This document shows, one piece after another, positions 12,562-20,571 of a DNA stretch of 41,528 nt. The translations under genes were made by a program, and so were the position numbers. The stretch comes from Oligosphaeraceae bacterium (lineage in GTDB: Bacteria; Verrucomicrobiota; Lentisphaeria; Oligosphaerales; Oligosphaeraceae): NCBI GenBank assembly GCA_012799725.1, contig JAAZKR010000009.1, positions 1-41,528 of the forward strand. The letters run 5' to 3'. Each line of letters opens with the position of its first letter. Within the stretch, counting starts at the first letter, position 1. The notes under the pieces were generated by a model. That model saw only the letters and a program-made list of their open reading frames with translations. It had not been told where the DNA came from and did no database searches.

Positions 12562-13974
12562 GTGAAGGCTTTTTCCGCAATTATGATCCAGACCGTGCGC
12601 TCTGCCACGCGTTCGAGGGTTTTTCACGTATTGTTCACATTGATCATCCTTGCGGTCTTTCTGTTGCCCATGACGGTGTCTGGCGACGGCACGGCTCAAG
12701 GACTGGTACAGATATCGCTAACTTATTCGCTCAATGTGGTTGTTGCTTTAATTTCCACAACCACTTTATGGCTTGCCTGCTCGTTATTATCCCGCGAGAT
12801 TGAGGCCTATAACATGCATATGGTTCTGAGCAAGCCCTGTCCGCGCTGGCTGGTCTGGCTGGGCAAATGGGCTGGTGTTTTCGTCATGCATCTGTTCATT
12901 CTGATTGTTTCCGCCCTGATCATTTATGCTTTAATCATTTGGCGTGTGAACCGCGGTAATTTTTCTGAACAGGAGCGTCAGCGTCTGGAAATGGAGACTT
13001 TGGTGGGGCGGCGCAGATTCCATCCTGAGCCGATAAGGTTAGCCCAGAGTGTGGAGGCCGAATATCAGCGGCGTATCAGCAGCGGTGTGGTGGATCAGCA
13101 GCATGATCCGCAGGCCGTGAAAAACGAAATTATGCGCAGCCTGATAGCACAGGAGGGTGAAGTAAAGCCGGGCGAGCAAAAAACTTGGCTCTTCAAAAAT
13201 GTGAAGACTAAAAGCGACGACGATATACTTTATCTGCGCTACCGCATGTATTCCGGTGACAGTTCTGACACCAACCAGTTGCTTATCCCCTGTCTTTGGG
13301 GCTTCCTTTTGCCGGATCAGATTGGTCAGACCAGCGAACCTTTTGCAATGATCAACCAAAAAGTCGCCGGTGGCAGTTTTCAAGAATTCCCGGTGCCTGC
13401 GGCCAGGGTGGTGGACAAGGAAAGGCAAAACCAGGTACTGGTACGCTTTATCAATTTACCAGCCGAGTTCTGGGGTGAGGGGCAAGCTGCTTCTGCCATC
13501 TTCCAGGCCAAGGATCGCCCCGTCATCTTGTGCAAGGTCACTGGATTTTTCAATAATTACATGCGTTCCTTAGTACTGGCTGCTTTCCAGATTGCCTTTT
13601 TAGCAGCTTTGGGGTGTACAGTAGGGGCTGCTTTCTCCACGCCGGTGGCTGCATTTACAGCTATCTCGTACTTAGTTATCGGCCTTAGTGTGCAGGCAGC
13701 GGTCTCAGCTCCGTTGCAGAATGAGGATGGCAGCTATCAATACAAGGGACTGACTGAAAAAGCAGTGCATCGCTTCGCCCAGTTTGTCAGTGTGGTGGTC
13801 GTCTCTGTGGACGATTTGGATGCGACTTCAGACCTGATCAAGGGTAACTTAGTCGAATATCGGCGTTTAGGTGCTGCCTTTTTCAATCTGATCCTGATTC
13901 GCAGCGGCCTGATTTCGGCTTTGGGCATTTGGATTTTGACGCGTCGCGAATTAGGCACGGTTATTAAGCGTTAA
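12562..13974 (+). CDS. ABC-2 type transporter permease with large extracytoplasmic domain
   Basis: This 470-residue membrane protein has two hydrophobic helices at the N-terminus, another pair by residue ~135, a hydrophilic stretch of roughly 200 residues, and further membrane helices near 330-380 and at the C-terminus. The second helix region contains LLSREIEAYNMHMVLSKP, the 'REIE...sKP.R..' segment typical of ABC-2 permeases that contact the ATPase. The start is GTG with AGGA about 12 bases upstream. No ATP-binding subunit is adjacent; the neighbour on the left is divergent and unrelated, so the ATPase must be encoded elsewhere. It is the first gene of a five-gene run with a helical-repeat protein and ExbB, ExbD and TonB-like proteins, which suggests an envelope transport complex. 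Confidence 0.82.
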   Translation: MKAFSAIMIQTVRSATRSRVFHVLFTLIILAVFLLPMTVSGDGTAQGLVQISLTYSLNVVVALISTTTLWLACSLLSREIEAYNMHMVLSKPCPRWLVWLGKWAGVFVMHLFILIVSALIIYALIIWRVNRGNFSEQERQRLEMETLVGRRRFHPEPIRLAQSVEAEYQRRISSGVVDQQHDPQAVKNEIMRSLIAQEGEVKPGEQKTWLFKNVKTKSDDDILYLRYRMYSGDSSDTNQLLIPCLWGFLLPDQIGQTSEPFAMINQKVAGGSFQEFPVPAARVVDKERQNQVLVRFINLPAEFWGEGQAASAIFQAKDRPVILCKVTGFFNNYMRSLVLAAFQIAFLAALGCTVGAAFSTPVAAFTAISYLVIGLSVQAAVSAPLQNEDGSYQYKGLTEKAVHRFAQFVSVVVVSVDDLDATSDLIKGNLVEYRRLGAAFFNLILIRSGLISALGIWILTRRELGTVIKR

Positions 13975-13988
13975 ACGGAGCTACAGTA

Positions 13989-15596
13989 ATGAGACAAAAC
14001 AAGCTCAATCTGATTTATATACTCCTGGCGATCGTACTATCGCTGTCATTGCTCTCCTTTTTACAGGGCAGGATGAATGCCATACGTGTGGAGCACCATC
14101 TTACAGATGTAGACCCGCTGGAAAACGCGCCGCCGCTGGTAGCTTTCACCAGCGTGGCTCTGGGGGGCTTCCGCGGTTTGGTTGGCGACTGGTTGTGGCT
14201 GCGTTCCAGCAAGATGCAGGACGAGGGCAAGTATTTCGAGATGGTGCAGCTGGCGAAATGGATTGTCAAGCTGCAACCACGTTTCACTGGTTCACATGCC
14301 TTCCTGGCATGGAATATGGCCTACAATGTCTCGGTGACATTCACTAGTTTTGAAGATCGTTGGCGCTGGGTGAAAAGAGGTATAGAACTGATCCGCGACG
14401 AGGCCTTGGAGTTTAATCCAGGCGATCCAGAATTATTTCGACAATTGGGCTGGATATATCAGCACAAGATGGGCAAGGATCTGGATGACGCCAACCGATA
14501 CTACAAAACTGAATTTGCTAAAGAGATGATCAGGCTTTTTGGCGATTACTACGGACAGTGGGAAAAATTGCAGAAGGCGCCGTTGGAAGAGAGCAAGCTG
14601 CGGGCTGTTCTTGAAAATAAGCCGGACTTTTGGAATTTGTTAGCCGCGCATGGCTATAAAAATTTTCAGGAGTTTGAGCAAGAGTTCCGCACATTGGCCG
14701 TTATTCCGGAAAAAATTGCTGCTGATCTAGAGAAGCTGGGCATCAAGGAGGCGGTGGAGCTATGCTTGCGTCGTCGCTGGATGACTAAGAAGTACCGGCT
14801 TGAACCGAGCTGGCTCATGTTGCTTAATCAGCGCTACGGCAACTTGGAATGGCGATTGCCGGAGGCGCATGCTATCTATTGGGCTGAACGCGGCAAGGAA
14901 AAATGGTACTTGGAGACCGATACGTTCAAGCGACTGAGCTGTGACCGCATGATTTTTCAATCGCTCAACGCTGCCTTTCAAATGGGCAGGCTGGTATATC
15001 TCAAAGACATCGAGCACTTGGAGATGACACCGAATATTAGTATCGTCGACGCCGTTAATAAAAGTTATACCGATGCTATGAAATTCTATGAGCAAAGCAG
15101 TGTTAAAGGCGGCTATACTAACTTTCTAGTGGATGCCATAGTCACGCTTTACAAATTCGGCGAGAAAACCAAAGCCGCAGAGTATATACAGATGGCTCGT
15201 AAAATCAATCCGGAACGCTTTAAGGCGAATCTGGATGATTTTGTCCTCGAGGAATTAGCCGAGGATATGCAGGCGGCTTCTTACCAGCAGGCTCAGGGAA
15301 CGGTGCAAAGCTATCTAATGCAGGCATATTATCAGCTTGCCATAGATGAGCATGAGACGGCAGAGAGCTATGTGATCATCGCAAAGCAGCTTTACGATCA
15401 TTATCAGAAATTTGTCGAGGGTACTGAAAGACGACGCGGTTTGCCTCCTTGGGAACAGATGAAAAGAACCAGCTTGGCCACTACCAAGTCGATTTTTCCG
15501 CCGGTTCTGGCGCAGAGGCTAGAGGAAATACTGCCACGTTCGGACGAAAAATTCATTCCTGTGGCCGGTGAGATCGAGGCTCCGACTGTGCATTAG
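13989..15596 (+). CDS. Membrane-anchored protein with helical (TPR-like) repeats, function unknown
   Basis: This is a 535-residue protein. An N-terminal hydrophobic helix (about residues 8-25) is not followed by an obvious cleavage site, so it is probably an inner-membrane anchor with the rest in the periplasm. The body is helical and rich in paired aromatic and leucine residues, with TPR-like segments such as the one around PELFRQLGWIYQHKMG near residue 155. GGFRGLVGDWLWLRSSKMQDEGKYFEM near residue 60 looks like the best-conserved block. I do not recognise a named family. It starts 14 bp after the permease with GGAG before the ATG, and is followed by exbB. It may be a periplasmic partner or scaffold of the ABC permease. 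Confidence 0.75.
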   Translation: MRQNKLNLIYILLAIVLSLSLLSFLQGRMNAIRVEHHLTDVDPLENAPPLVAFTSVALGGFRGLVGDWLWLRSSKMQDEGKYFEMVQLAKWIVKLQPRFTGSHAFLAWNMAYNVSVTFTSFEDRWRWVKRGIELIRDEALEFNPGDPELFRQLGWIYQHKMGKDLDDANRYYKTEFAKEMIRLFGDYYGQWEKLQKAPLEESKLRAVLENKPDFWNLLAAHGYKNFQEFEQEFRTLAVIPEKIAADLEKLGIKEAVELCLRRRWMTKKYRLEPSWLMLLNQRYGNLEWRLPEAHAIYWAERGKEKWYLETDTFKRLSCDRMIFQSLNAAFQMGRLVYLKDIEHLEMTPNISIVDAVNKSYTDAMKFYEQSSVKGGYTNFLVDAIVTLYKFGEKTKAAEYIQMARKINPERFKANLDDFVLEELAEDMQAASYQQAQGTVQSYLMQAYYQLAIDEHETAESYVIIAKQLYDHYQKFVEGTERRRGLPPWEQMKRTSLATTKSIFPPVLAQRLEEILPRSDEKFIPVAGEIEAPTVH

Positions 15597-15646: not shown

Positions 15647-16303
15647 ATGAGTTTTCTACCAAAGCTACTTCATGATGGTGGCCCATTGGTATATGTAATA
15701 CTAGCCTTTGGTGCCTTGGCTTTCCTGCTATTTTTGGAGCGTTCGCTATATTTTCTGCGTGCCAAGGTGGACACACAGGAGCTTTTCCATGGTCTGATGA
15801 ATCATTTGCGTAACAATAACTTGAAAGAGGCCATAGCCAATTGCGATAACAAGACCGGCATGGTGGGCGAAGTGTTTCGCAGCGCTATTGTGCGCTGGGA
15901 GGATGGGCCGGAGGCTATACATAAGTCGGCTGAGGAGAGCATACGCCTGAATATACCCAAGCTGGAAAACAATATGAAGTTACTGGCCAGTATCAGCAAT
16001 ATTGCACCAGTAATAGGGCTGTTGGGAACCCTGTTTTGGATGATTAAGATATTCGAGAAGCTGGGGCATCCTGGTGGGCAGTTCGTTGCGACTGTGGCAC
16101 TGGCCGGCGAAATGAAGGGAGCGCTGGTATGTACTGCTGCCGGCCTGATCGTTGCCTTGGCTGCACAACTCTTTTATTTTTTGCTGCTCGAGCAAATCGA
16201 CCGTATAGTCTTGGAGATGAACAAGGCAGCTTCAGAAATATGTTACTTTTTATGTAGCAATCCGGCTAGAAAAGATGAAGCGGGAGAAAAACAAGCTGAA
16301 TAG
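15647..16303 (+). CDS. exbB: MotA/TolQ/ExbB-type proton-channel protein
   Basis: This inner-membrane protein of about 218 residues has the three-helix ExbB/TolQ layout: TM1 near residues 10-30, a cytoplasmic region, then TM2 with APVIGLLGTLFWM and TM3 with TAAGLIVALAAQLFYF. The threonine of GLLGT and that of the TM3 CTAAGL are kept. The acidic residue expected five positions before the TM3 threonine (Glu176 in E. coli ExbB, in AEALLAT) is Gly here (KGALVCT), and the usual TM3 proline is Ala. I start at the ATG at 15647, which has GGAG nine bases upstream; the ORF-track TTG at 15632 overlaps that site. The gene precedes exbD by 18 bases. Confidence 0.88.
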   Translation: MSFLPKLLHDGGPLVYVILAFGALAFLLFLERSLYFLRAKVDTQELFHGLMNHLRNNNLKEAIANCDNKTGMVGEVFRSAIVRWEDGPEAIHKSAEESIRLNIPKLENNMKLLASISNIAPVIGLLGTLFWMIKIFEKLGHPGGQFVATVALAGEMKGALVCTAAGLIVALAAQLFYFLLLEQIDRIVLEMNKAASEICYFLCSNPARKDEAGEKQAE

Positions 16304-16321
16304 GATACATTTTATCGGAAT

Positions 16322-16834
16322 ATGCAGACGCAAACGCACAGCCTGAAGAAAAGTCCCGAGATTTTTCCTAGTTTGGTGGGGCTGATCAGCCTTTTTTTCA
16401 TCCTTATTCTAATGGTGATGATCAGCAATAGCGTAGTGTTCTGGACCGGTACTGCGGTGGAGACCAGTCTTGCGCTGCCGGTCATGCATTCAGCCAAGTT
16501 AAATACGGCAGATAAAATGATCGTTACTATCACGCGTTCCGGCAAGATTTTTTTCAATGACTTGAGTTTGGACTGGCATGGGCTGGAACGCGAGCTGGGC
16601 AATCATGTTCATGACAGTCTGGGCGCTCAAGCCAAGCGCGAAGGAAGCACGATTGAACAGTCCGAGCAAAATCCACCCATGGTTATTGTACGTGCTGATC
16701 GCAATAACAGCTATGAGACCATTGCCAAGGTGATGGACTTGGCGCGTTCGCTGGGGATCAATGTATATCTTGCTGCCGAACCGCCCGGTAACAATAGTCA
16801 GGGCAGCTATGTGCCGGATGCCGCGAACCGATGA
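16322..16834 (+). CDS. exbD: ExbD/TolR-type protein lacking the transmembrane aspartate
   Basis: This 170-residue protein has one N-terminal membrane helix and a periplasmic domain with the ExbD/TolR signature: VETSLALPV after the helix, VTITRSGKIFFND, then VIVRADRNNSYETIAKVMDLARSLG. In the family the helix begins with P-x-I-D, whose Asp carries protons (Asp25 in E. coli ExbD). Here the corresponding stretch is FPSLVGLISLFFIL, with no acidic residue anywhere in the helix. The protein would pair with the ExbB just upstream. Either the coupling residue has moved or the complex does not use the usual proton path. Confidence 0.85.
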   Translation: MQTQTHSLKKSPEIFPSLVGLISLFFILILMVMISNSVVFWTGTAVETSLALPVMHSAKLNTADKMIVTITRSGKIFFNDLSLDWHGLERELGNHVHDSLGAQAKREGSTIEQSEQNPPMVIVRADRNNSYETIAKVMDLARSLGINVYLAAEPPGNNSQGSYVPDAANR

Positions 16835-16843
16835 GGAGCAAGC

Positions 16844-17653
16844 TTGTTTAATGTGCTGACATTGCTGGAAAATGAAAGGTGGCGGCATGTTCTTGCGGTC
16901 CTGATCTTGATATTGCTGCATTTGCCTCTTGCTCTATTGAAAGTAGACAGCGTAAAAAAAACGGTTGCGGAACTCGATATGCATTTGCCTGAGGTGGTGA
17001 GTTTGCCACATGGCGACAGTGTGGGTTTGCCGCAGTTTATAAATGATCTCTATGATTGGAGCGAGATTGCCGATCCGGCCAGGATGTTGCAGGTTGACAT
17101 GGAAAGTGGCTTTTCGCGTTATGCCAATCCAACTATAAGCTATGTGCAGCCGACATTGCCGCAGTGGAGTGTGCCGGAGTTTCATTTGACGCCATCCGAG
17201 GTTCAGGAGAGTCAGCTGCCGGTGAAATCGGTCAGCCTTGCCGAAATGCTGCAAGCTAATTGGCAGGAAAGCAACGAGTTCTTCCTGCCGCCATTACCCC
17301 GAGAAGAAATTCCAAAAGGCGGTTTCTGGCGTCTTGCAGGACGTCGCGGCGTTATTCAAAACATAGAGATGCCGGCGGAATATGAAGCGCTGTTGCAAGA
17401 TCCTGAGGAGCTGGCCAAATTGAATGACAGCAGTCTGCTTGAGCTTAGCCGACTGCCCGGCGTAGGGCTATTTCGTGTGCGACTCAGGCGCAGTTCTGGA
17501 AACAGCAAACTGGATCAGATTGCTGCACAGGCATTGCGCTTGCATCTGTTTAAAAAACAGGCTCAGGCACGGGCGGAATCTATGTCCGACTTTGAAATGC
17601 GCCGCAGCTTGATACTGGAAGTAGATTGGAGACCTGCCCCGGTGACGCCATGA
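16844..17653 (+). CDS. TonB-like single-span envelope protein
   Basis: This 269-residue protein has one N-terminal membrane helix (VLAVLILILLHLPLALL) and a long extracytoplasmic part. The C-terminal ~60 residues (FRVRLRRSSGNSKLDQIAAQALRLHLF ... LILEVDW) follow the pattern of TonB C-terminal domains, in which a strand, 'SSGnpxLDxaAlxAL' and a final strand recur. The Pro-Glu/Pro-Lys spacer of classical TonB is replaced by a mildly proline-containing linker. The start is TTG with a strong GAGGAG six bases upstream, and the gene begins nine bases after the exbD stop. Position and fold make it the third member of an ExbB-ExbD-TonB-like module. Confidence 0.7.
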   Translation: MFNVLTLLENERWRHVLAVLILILLHLPLALLKVDSVKKTVAELDMHLPEVVSLPHGDSVGLPQFINDLYDWSEIADPARMLQVDMESGFSRYANPTISYVQPTLPQWSVPEFHLTPSEVQESQLPVKSVSLAEMLQANWQESNEFFLPPLPREEIPKGGFWRLAGRRGVIQNIEMPAEYEALLQDPEELAKLNDSSLLELSRLPGVGLFRVRLRRSSGNSKLDQIAAQALRLHLFKKQAQARAESMSDFEMRRSLILEVDWRPAPVTP

Positions 17654-17886: not shown

Positions 17887-18153
17887 ATGAATATTAATTT
17901 GCACATAGAAGAATGCCTGTTGCTTTACACCATCGTGTTGCTGGCTTTTGTCGCCGCCAGCTATATTTTGTTTAGACTGAGACGCAAAGCCGACAATTGG
18001 GAGCCATCCAGGGCCAGGCTGATGTCCTGTCGCAAGTGTGAAAAGGTTTTTCTCATGAAGCGTCAACAAATAGACCGTCGCTGCCCTGCCTGCGGTGAGA
18101 TTTCGCATGAATTTCGTCCGCCGCATTCGGTGTTATTCACCAAGCTGAGATAA
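17887..18153 (+). CDS. Small membrane protein with a C-terminal zinc ribbon
   Basis: The 88-residue product has a hydrophobic helix at residues ~10-32 and then a cytosolic tail with C-x2-C (CRKC) and C-x2-C (CPAC) separated by 17 residues, a zinc-ribbon layout. I take the ATG at 17887; the ORF-track TTG at 17875 lies inside the repeat end that abuts the gene. No clear ribosome-binding sequence is seen. The function is unknown; a regulatory or assembly role at the membrane is possible. Confidence 0.6.
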   Translation: MNINLHIEECLLLYTIVLLAFVAASYILFRLRRKADNWEPSRARLMSCRKCEKVFLMKRQQIDRRCPACGEISHEFRPPHSVLFTKLR

Positions 18154-18309: not shown

Positions 18310-20571
18310 ATGTCAACTTGGTTTAGCTACGCACTGTTGTTTTTATTGCTGGCTGCTTCTTCCGGTTTTGCCCAGGCATTAGACCTAGCCAAGGCGGCGG
18401 CAACCTGCATTCCCAGCGCAGCGGCATCTGCGGCCAATTTGCGCAGCTTTTCCGCTAATCAAGCTGCCCTTGAGCTCGAGGCGCGTTTTTCTTTGCAGGG
18501 GAACAATCGTGCCTGCTGGGATTTTCCGCTGCAGGCCGACCTTTCACAAATGTCGGCTTTACGTTTGCGTTATCGCAGTTTTAATACACCCGTAGTCAGC
18601 CAGTTCAATGTCTACTTGCGTATGGGCGGCAATTGGTATGCTGCAAGCTTTGCGCCGGAAGGCAATGGTGCTTGGGAAGAGTGCATCATTCCCAAAACCA
18701 GTTTTTTACCGGAGAGTGGCAGCAATTCTTGGCGTCAGGCTAATATGCTGCGTATTGCAGCTTGGCGCGGCGGTACCGGCGAGCTGCTGCTGCAATTTGT
18801 TGCACTCGAGCTACTCGCGCCCAATTGCAGTATTGCTTTATTGCGCAGCGGCGGCAATAGTGAGCAACAAAAAGAGGCCTACAAATACGCCAGGCATCTA
18901 GGTGACAACCTTTTTCAGGGTGGACTCTATCCTGCGGTTCTGGAGGGGGATGATTGTAGCGCCAGCTTGTTATATCCTTATCAGCTTGTATTGCTCCCAT
19001 TTGCCGAAGCAGCTTCGCCAGCACAATTGTCGGCGATCAATTTATATATACAAAATCGCGGCAAAGTCGGTGTTTTCCACGCTTTGCCACCACTGTTAGC
19101 GGCGCGTCTACAATTTCCAGCAGGGCGTTTTACGCTAGCTAAGTCTCTGCCTGCGCCTTTGGCGATGGTGGAGCCGGTGGCACAGCGCTTAACTGGCTCT
19201 AAGTCCTTCCGACAACAATCCGGTGCGTTTATTGCTTTGGCACCCTCTGAGGTTTACAGTGTCAATGCCTGGTGGGTGGATAGCAAGGGCAAGAACAGCG
19301 GTTATCCGGCCATCATTGAAAACCGCTCCGGATTCTGGATGACGCATGTATTTTTGAATCAGGATTCTGAACCGGCTTTTTTAACTTTACTATCTCAGAT
19401 GCAACGTTTTTTGCCCGGCCTGGAGCAAGCTGCCGCTGCTGCAAGCCTGAATCGTGCACGCTTTGCGGTGGCTAATGCTGGCGAGAACAAGCGTCGCCAA
19501 GCGGCAGCGGAGTTGGCCAGGGCCAATCAGGCCTTTCAAAATCGTCAATACGAGCAAAGCAGGCTGTATGCCATCAATAGCTTAAATCAGCTGCGAAATG
19601 CAGGGATTATGCAGATGCCTGCCAGACCCAACGAGTTCAGGGCAATGTGGTGCAGAAGTCCTTTGGGACTGCCGGGGCACAATTGGGATGAAAGTATCAG
19701 CTTGTTGAAAAAGGCTTCTTTCAGTGCAATTTTTCCCAATATGTCACATGCTTTTGCATCAACACATGCTAATGCCAGGCAGATAGAGGAATGCCTGCAA
19801 GCTTGCAGGCGACACGGTCTTGCCATGCATCTATGGCTGAGCTGCCTGGGTGCGCAGGATTTCTCGGAAGTCGAACTGCGCCGATTGGCTGCACAGGGGC
19901 GCTTGCAGTGCAAAGCCAATGGAGCAGTGCTGCCTTGGTTATGTCCAAATCAAAGCCGCAACCGCAAACAAATAATCGAAAGCGCTGCCGAATTGTGTAG
20001 ACGTTATGCTCTGGACGGGTTGCATTTGGACCTGATACGCTATCCGGGCAGTCAGGCATGCTTCTGTGATGCTTGCAGGGAGGCCTTTGCCGCTTATCTA
20101 CAAAAACCGATCCCATCTTGGCCGGACACTGCACAATATCAGGCACGGCAGGAATGGGAGGAGTTTCGTCGGCTCAGCATTAGTAACTTGGTCAAGGACA
20201 TACGTTTGGCGGCAAAGGCGCAGCGTCCGCAAATCCTTTTGTCTGCTGCGGTTTACACGGACTGGCAGAGTGCCAGAAGCACGGTAGGTCAGGATTGGGT
20301 TAACTGGCAAAGAGGGCGTCTGCTGGACTTTGTCTGTCCCATGAACTATCGTGCCAGTGCGACTCTTTTCGCCAATGATTTGCGGCGTCAAAAACAGCAA
20401 CTCGGCGGTTTGGAAGCGGTGTTGCCGGGCATAGGAGTGAGCAGCGAGAACATGTCAGCACAGGAGTTAATCCGGCAGGTTCAGGCCTGTAGACAAGCCG
20501 GAGCAGTTGGCTTTATACTCTTTGAATATACGCCACGATTAGCTTTTGATTTGCTGCCGCAATTGCAATAG
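18310..20571 (+). CDS. Secreted glycoside hydrolase-like protein (GHL10/DUF187 type)
   Basis: The product is 753 residues from the ATG at 18310. That start gives a clean signal peptide (STWFSYALLFLLLAA ... GFAQA), while the ORF-track start at 18232 would add 26 residues before it. The N-terminal ~170 residues look like a beta-sandwich of carbohydrate-binding type, then come a domain of unknown role and an alanine-rich helical segment. The last ~320 residues form a GHL10-type TIM barrel: RAMWCRSPLG, RRHGLAMHLWLSCLGA, DGLHLDLIRYPG, VCPMNYR and GFILFEY are its strand landmarks, with the acidic pair of DGLHLDLIRYPG at the presumed active site. It likely acts on polysaccharide or peptidoglycan outside the cytoplasm. 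The substrate cannot be told from sequence. Confidence 0.87.
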   Translation: MSTWFSYALLFLLLAASSGFAQALDLAKAAATCIPSAAASAANLRSFSANQAALELEARFSLQGNNRACWDFPLQADLSQMSALRLRYRSFNTPVVSQFNVYLRMGGNWYAASFAPEGNGAWEECIIPKTSFLPESGSNSWRQANMLRIAAWRGGTGELLLQFVALELLAPNCSIALLRSGGNSEQQKEAYKYARHLGDNLFQGGLYPAVLEGDDCSASLLYPYQLVLLPFAEAASPAQLSAINLYIQNRGKVGVFHALPPLLAARLQFPAGRFTLAKSLPAPLAMVEPVAQRLTGSKSFRQQSGAFIALAPSEVYSVNAWWVDSKGKNSGYPAIIENRSGFWMTHVFLNQDSEPAFLTLLSQMQRFLPGLEQAAAAASLNRARFAVANAGENKRRQAAAELARANQAFQNRQYEQSRLYAINSLNQLRNAGIMQMPARPNEFRAMWCRSPLGLPGHNWDESISLLKKASFSAIFPNMSHAFASTHANARQIEECLQACRRHGLAMHLWLSCLGAQDFSEVELRRLAAQGRLQCKANGAVLPWLCPNQSRNRKQIIESAAELCRRYALDGLHLDLIRYPGSQACFCDACREAFAAYLQKPIPSWPDTAQYQARQEWEEFRRLSISNLVKDIRLAAKAQRPQILLSAAVYTDWQSARSTVGQDWVNWQRGRLLDFVCPMNYRASATLFANDLRRQKQQLGGLEAVLPGIGVSSENMSAQELIRQVQACRQAGAVGFILFEYTPRLAFDLLPQLQ

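Follow-up and report, generated by a model that had tools for sequence, protein, structure and literature searches.

The window analysed here, a stretch of 41,528 nucleotides from the genome of an Oligosphaeraceae bacterium, carries six genes on one strand between positions 12562 and 18153, which encode, in order, a permease, a TPR-like protein, an ExbB, an ExbD, a single-helix membrane protein of 269 residues, and a zinc-ribbon protein (Table 1). The last four form a conserved block of exbB, exbD, a TonB-like gene and the zinc-ribbon gene that extends across the class Lentisphaerae, as judged from the 149 genomes examined, and is found in other classes of the phylum as well; when the window ExbD was searched against 198 genomes of the class, 157 matched. 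On the nearest contig in GTDB, labelled Lentisphaerae bacterium, the ExbB is 94% identical to that of the window. The surroundings of the block vary by lineage, with yebC and nnr upstream in several families and gyrB, recA and a TPR gene in others, and with guaA or rsmD downstream in some lineages (these names were assigned by reading the sequences). The zinc-ribbon gene is taken to start at its first ATG, and its place downstream of the TonB-like gene is kept across the class. Downstream of the operon lies a gene for a glycosyl hydrolase-like 10 (GHL10) protein (18310-20571). The permease and the TPR-like protein at the upstream end are a class-universal pair, and the TPR protein is 58-92% identical within the family.

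Table 1. Features of the exbB-exbD locus in the window and the evidence for each.
Feature	Positions	Strand	Evidence
Gene resembling ABC-2 type permeases, at the head of the transcription unit in the window's clade	12562..13974	+	Weak PF12679 match, 23.4 bits (cut-off 27.2)
Membrane-anchored protein with weak TPR similarity	13989..15596	+	PF13431, under its cut-off
exbB/tolQ-like gene; Gly158 at Glu176, Thr128 at Thr148, Thr163 at Thr181 of E. coli ExbB	15647..16303	+	PF01618, 83.1 bits (curated cut-off 22.9); alignment
exbD/tolR-like gene; Ser23 at Asp25 of E. coli ExbD	16322..16834	+	PF02472, 46.1 bits (curated cut-off 25.4); alignment
Ser23 codon AGC, at the position of E. coli ExbD Asp25	16388..16390	+	Alignment
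TonB-like transducer, 269 residues, one N-terminal transmembrane helix and a long periplasmic part	16844..17653	+	Orthologue profile; AlphaFold2 topology
Fourth gene of the cluster, for a small single-helix membrane protein with zinc-ribbon cysteines (CxxC...CxxC)	17890..18153	+	Sequence; conserved position

Both members of the ExbB/ExbD pair score over the curated Pfam cut-offs of their families, and both fall under the cut-offs of the NCBIfam equivalogs for the Ton system (TIGR02797, TIGR02805, TIGR02803 and TIGR02804): the ExbB reaches 34.2 of 206.2 bits for exbB and 46.2 of 135.35 bits for exbB2, and the ExbD reaches 16.8 of 123.45 bits for ExbD_2 and 13.6 of 152.95 bits for ExbD_1. The tolQ and tolR equivalogs (TIGR02796 and TIGR02801) are the best NCBIfam models for the pair, which is nevertheless far under their cut-offs (66.8 of 221 bits for tolQ and 33.7 of 127.3 bits for tolR). 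The system resembles Tol-Pal further in that the solved structure closest to the window ExbB is that of TolQ (E 1e-8) and that several families of the class have a TPR gene upstream of exbB, but no TolB or Pal gene was recognised adjoining the pair, and the Asp of TolR is missing. The likeness to the Ton system of E. coli (ExbB-ExbD-TonB) lies in the Pfam families, the order of exbB, exbD and transducer gene, the ring of Thr148 and Thr181 in ExbB, the ExbD helix followed by a periplasmic domain, and a transducer whose single helix has a membrane His and whose C-terminal signature may be TonB-like; unlike that system, the window complex lacks Asp25, its ExbB group lacks Trp38, its transducer is under Pfam TonB detection, and its genome has no match to a receptor plug or TonB_C. 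Two more distant relatives also bear comparison. GldL-GldM, the type IX secretion motor, is a 5:2 motor with an essential acid away from the MotB/ExbD site, but that acid, Glu49 in the ring helix of GldL, has no counterpart that could be found in the window ExbB. The MotA-MotB and PomA-PomB stators belong to the same superfamily, and MotB bears the equivalent Asp, but the stators are flagellar, require the Asp, and share only weak sequence similarity with the window pair.

The third protein of the block is named TonB-like solely on its N-terminal His helix, its C-terminal signature and a profile match. The C-terminal domain carries the group signature SCGxxxLDxxAxxxL...VxWR, and a profile of 75 orthologues matched TonB C-terminal domains in the PDB at E values of 0.004 and 0.007. 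Pfam TonB_2 matches two of these 75 members, and the window protein has no Pfam match; hhalign of the TonB-like protein against the E. coli TonB domain gave no confident confirmation, and Foldseek with the model of the protein returned no significant match, weak matches to TonB and TolA domains ranking under unrelated ones. The membrane-helix His (His26 in the window; compare the SHLS motif of TonB and TolA) is present in 45 of the 75 aligned members, that is, in 24 of 43 with an Asp-bearing ExbD and 21 of 32 with an Asp-less one; in the window transducer, a Leu lies four residues ahead of it. The window genome, in an assembly that is about 93% complete, has no TonB-dependent receptor plug (PF07715) and no TonB_C match, and the complex is therefore unlikely to serve nutrient receptors there. 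A raw trend tying Asp loss to the absence of TonB-dependent receptors among these genomes vanished once relatedness was considered.

The first-pass annotation of this DNA had observed that the membrane helix of the window ExbD has no equivalent of Asp25 of E. coli ExbD, and this was borne out by the alignment, in which the Asp25 column is occupied by Ser23. The core of the helix contains no other acid; Glu13 sits at the cytoplasmic edge. The window ExbD accordingly lacks the membrane-helix Asp by which a proton-carrying axle is recognised (Asp25 of ExbD, Asp23 of TolR). The ExbD loss, taken alone, is genuine and not a matter of chance: the Asp-less state is common to the whole clade of 11 genomes that contains the window, and it recurs elsewhere.

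Across the class, the Asp25 site is about evenly divided, with Asp in 76 of 149 orthologues and another residue in 73 (Ser 25, Asn 21, Cys 13, Gly 10, Ala 3, Thr 1), and among 11 orthologues from other classes Asp is present in 5 and replaced in 6 (Asn 4, Thr 2). One further orthologue from another class has an ExbD frame that aligns poorly around the site (AIGHCDTSAPFFFLLGSSFV), possibly through a frameshift or assembly error, and was omitted from these counts. In a tree of ExbB and ExbD built without the Asp25 column (160 rows), the state at this site must change at least 20 times, and at least 15 of these changes are forced by well-supported branches; a smaller tree set gave 15 changes, 13 of them forced in the same way. 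The counts themselves give no direction, but Asp is present in the paralogues that serve as outgroup, which makes loss the natural interpretation and suggests that most of the changes are losses. Family f23 is Asp-less in all 30 of its tree rows, and one genus holds both states, two of its genomes (G036 and G038) having Asp and a third (G037) Asn. The replacements are all small, and Glu, Val, Tyr and His never occur, though each is one base from an Asp codon. Two ExbD helices are tightly packed inside the ExbB pore (PMC6778125), and a constraint to small residues fits this arrangement; the substitution pattern indicates that packing at the site is kept and the carboxylate is not.

It was also claimed initially that the ExbB has Gly in place of Glu176, within KGALVCT, and that paired losses in ExbB and ExbD would be unlikely by chance. 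The residue is as described (Gly158, codon GGA, 16118-16120), but the argument built on it falls, because Glu176 is not conserved in the group. Glu is found at this position in 18 of 123 orthologues, 9 of the 57 with an Asp-bearing ExbD and 9 of the 66 with an Asp-less one, and in the window genome the residues at this position in the other three ExbBs, whose partners are Asp-bearing ExbDs, are Gly, Gln and Thr. Position 176 varies independently of the Asp25 state, which makes the coincidence uninformative, and Glu176 was dismissed as a meaningful loss. The polar ring is another matter. Thr148 and Thr181, which contact Asp25 in the cryo-EM structure (PMC6778125), both have equivalents in the window ExbB; among the 123 orthologues, 122 keep Thr148 (65 of the 66 that are Asp-less) and 111 keep Thr181 (56 of 66 Asp-less versus 55 of 57 Asp-bearing members). 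A coupling of Thr181 loss to Asp loss was considered and rejected, as it is represented by two to three independent pairs, never in the reverse direction, and is not significant. Trp38 is missing from ExbB across the whole group, and Pro190 is kept in 41 of 66 Asp-less and 35 of 57 Asp-bearing members. Both residues belong to a proposed network for signalling from TonB (PMC12215075), and since Trp38 is absent and Pro190 often absent, the ExbB group had diverged already before Asp was lost.

The main rival to a complex that works without proton carriage is a heteromeric motor, in which the operon ExbB pentamer would hold one Asp-less and one Asp-bearing ExbD and a single carboxylate would carry the protons. 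Other ExbD paralogues keep Asp in 33 of 33 cases, drawn from 14 genomes of which 13 have an Asp-less operon copy, so a possible partner is present in 13 of 13 Asp-less genomes examined; because all 33 retain the residue, the loss is specific to the operon copy. The window genome itself has three further ExbB and four further ExbD genes (genome G000, contigs C36, C25 and C83), and all of these ExbDs have Asp. Retention of Thr148 and Thr181 would suit such a motor, and paired heterologous TolR-like genes are known from the PVC group (PMC12204202). However, the operon has a single exbD, the Asp-bearing exbD genes of the genome adjoin exbB genes of their own, and a mixed dimer leaves unexplained why only the operon copy repeatedly loses Asp. 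We consider this explanation unlikely.

A second possibility is that protons or another ion take a different path, through water, the Thr148/Thr181 ring and whichever of Ser, Asn, Cys or Thr occupies the Asp site, or by way of acids at the mouth of the pore (ExbB 154, ExbD 19). There is precedent for a relocated carboxylate in the GldLM motor, whose essential acid is in the ring subunit (PMC8986121), and the Thr ring is retained. At ExbB 154 (Asn154 in E. coli), where TM2 ends on the periplasmic side, an acid occurs in 35 of 66 Asp-less versus 13 of 57 Asp-bearing members, but the trend is not significant once relatedness is considered, and the window has Lys. Acids at ExbD 19, at the cytoplasmic edge, are found among Asp-bearing members too, and Gly and Ala, as well as the polar residues, occupy the Asp site. 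The membrane-core columns of ExbB in the 66 Asp-less members hold no acid except at position 176 (9 of 66), the ExbD helix core of Asp-less members holds none, and when every column of both proteins was scanned with the tree taken into account, none gave a convincing replacement. The shifted, pore-facing acid that could have accounted for the missing Asp was thus sought in the sequences of both proteins and not found, and we regard an alternative path as improbable.

It is more doubtful still that ATP drives the complex. Such a drive would come from the ABC-2 permease/TPR pair, which in the window's clade shares a transcription unit with exbB and would power the complex there. The pair lies directly upstream of exbB only in that Asp-less clade of family f1, and in two genomes (L270 and L271) an ABC ATPase gene directly precedes homologues of the pair. 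In other Asp-less lineages, however, the linkage is missing, the pair forming a locus of its own throughout the class, and within the window no ATPase gene adjoins it. Of 119 class genomes, 113 have the TPR-like protein, usually away from exbB, and the permease and TPR-like protein were rejected as a general part of the ExbB/ExbD system, since most of the class carries them at a different locus. An ATP drive is accordingly given very little credence.

Purifying selection on ExbB and ExbD is as strong in Asp-less as in Asp-bearing members. Pairwise dN/dS between close relatives, estimated by the method of Nei and Gojobori with one pair that showed almost no synonymous change set aside, has a median among Asp-less pairs of about 0.03 (ExbB) and 0.04 (ExbD), the same as among Asp-bearing pairs, and the window compared with a congener gives 0.017 for ExbB and 0.041 for ExbD. 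These low ratios mean that the Asp-less exbB and exbD are working genes. Decay of a dispensable operon, with Asp drifting toward loss, might be read from the repeated disappearance of a residue held to be essential and from some genomes with no detected copy, but the low ExbB ratio together with intact reading frames contradicts it, and ExbD Asp107 is kept in 66 of 66 Asp-less members and an old family that is Asp-less in every row retains the operon, leaving this explanation as improbable as an ATP drive.

For MotB, ExbD, TolR and PomB, a review from 2026 describes the Asp as "absolutely required for activity" (PMC12905483). A search of the open-access literature, subscription papers being outside it, for characterised active homologues without this Asp found none, and no ExbD or TolR homologue that naturally lacks it was described there. 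The repeated loss of such a residue from a constrained operon implies that the selected function needs no proton carriage by the residue at position 25, and the complex probably works without being a proton motor. The first-pass annotation had proposed an uncoupled, differently powered or structural complex; the part of that proposal drawn from ExbD holds, given about 20 state changes, no compensating acid and purifying selection, and the part drawn from ExbB Glu176 does not.

On balance, we favour a retained Ton/Tol-like trans-envelope complex with a structural or tethering role, whose selected function would no longer need proton carriage. The basis for this in the sequences is the loss of Asp, its repetition, the conservation of the rest, purifying selection and the lack of a replacement acid. 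In such a complex, an ExbB pentamer would surround an ExbD dimer, a presumed 5:2 assembly, and the TonB-like protein would span the periplasm; ExbD would grip peptidoglycan, the TonB-like protein would touch a partner in the envelope, and the ExbB ring would join the two. The whole may then act as an envelope tether or scaffold without proton-driven rotation, descended from proton-coupled ancestors and keeping the packing of small residues at the Asp site. Two observations run against this reading. Thr148 and Thr181 are kept in Asp-less members beyond any obvious scaffold need, and the Asp-bearing ExbD paralogues present in every Asp-less genome examined could supply the acid.

It is about an even question whether a whole branch of the ExbB/ExbD superfamily, found in two or more classes of a single phylum, functions without the Asp, as an envelope machine independent of the proton motive force or one powered in an undescribed way. 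Some 20 natural changes at an Asp held to be absolutely required, in an operon under constraint, would amount to a replicated experiment in uncoupling the complex from the proton gradient, and would separate the structural from the motor roles of the assembly of ring, axle and transducer. Close natural pairs with and without Asp, such as G036 and G038 versus G037, are suited to direct tests of this. The pattern is also a warning that not every ExbB/ExbD pair should be annotated as a proton channel.
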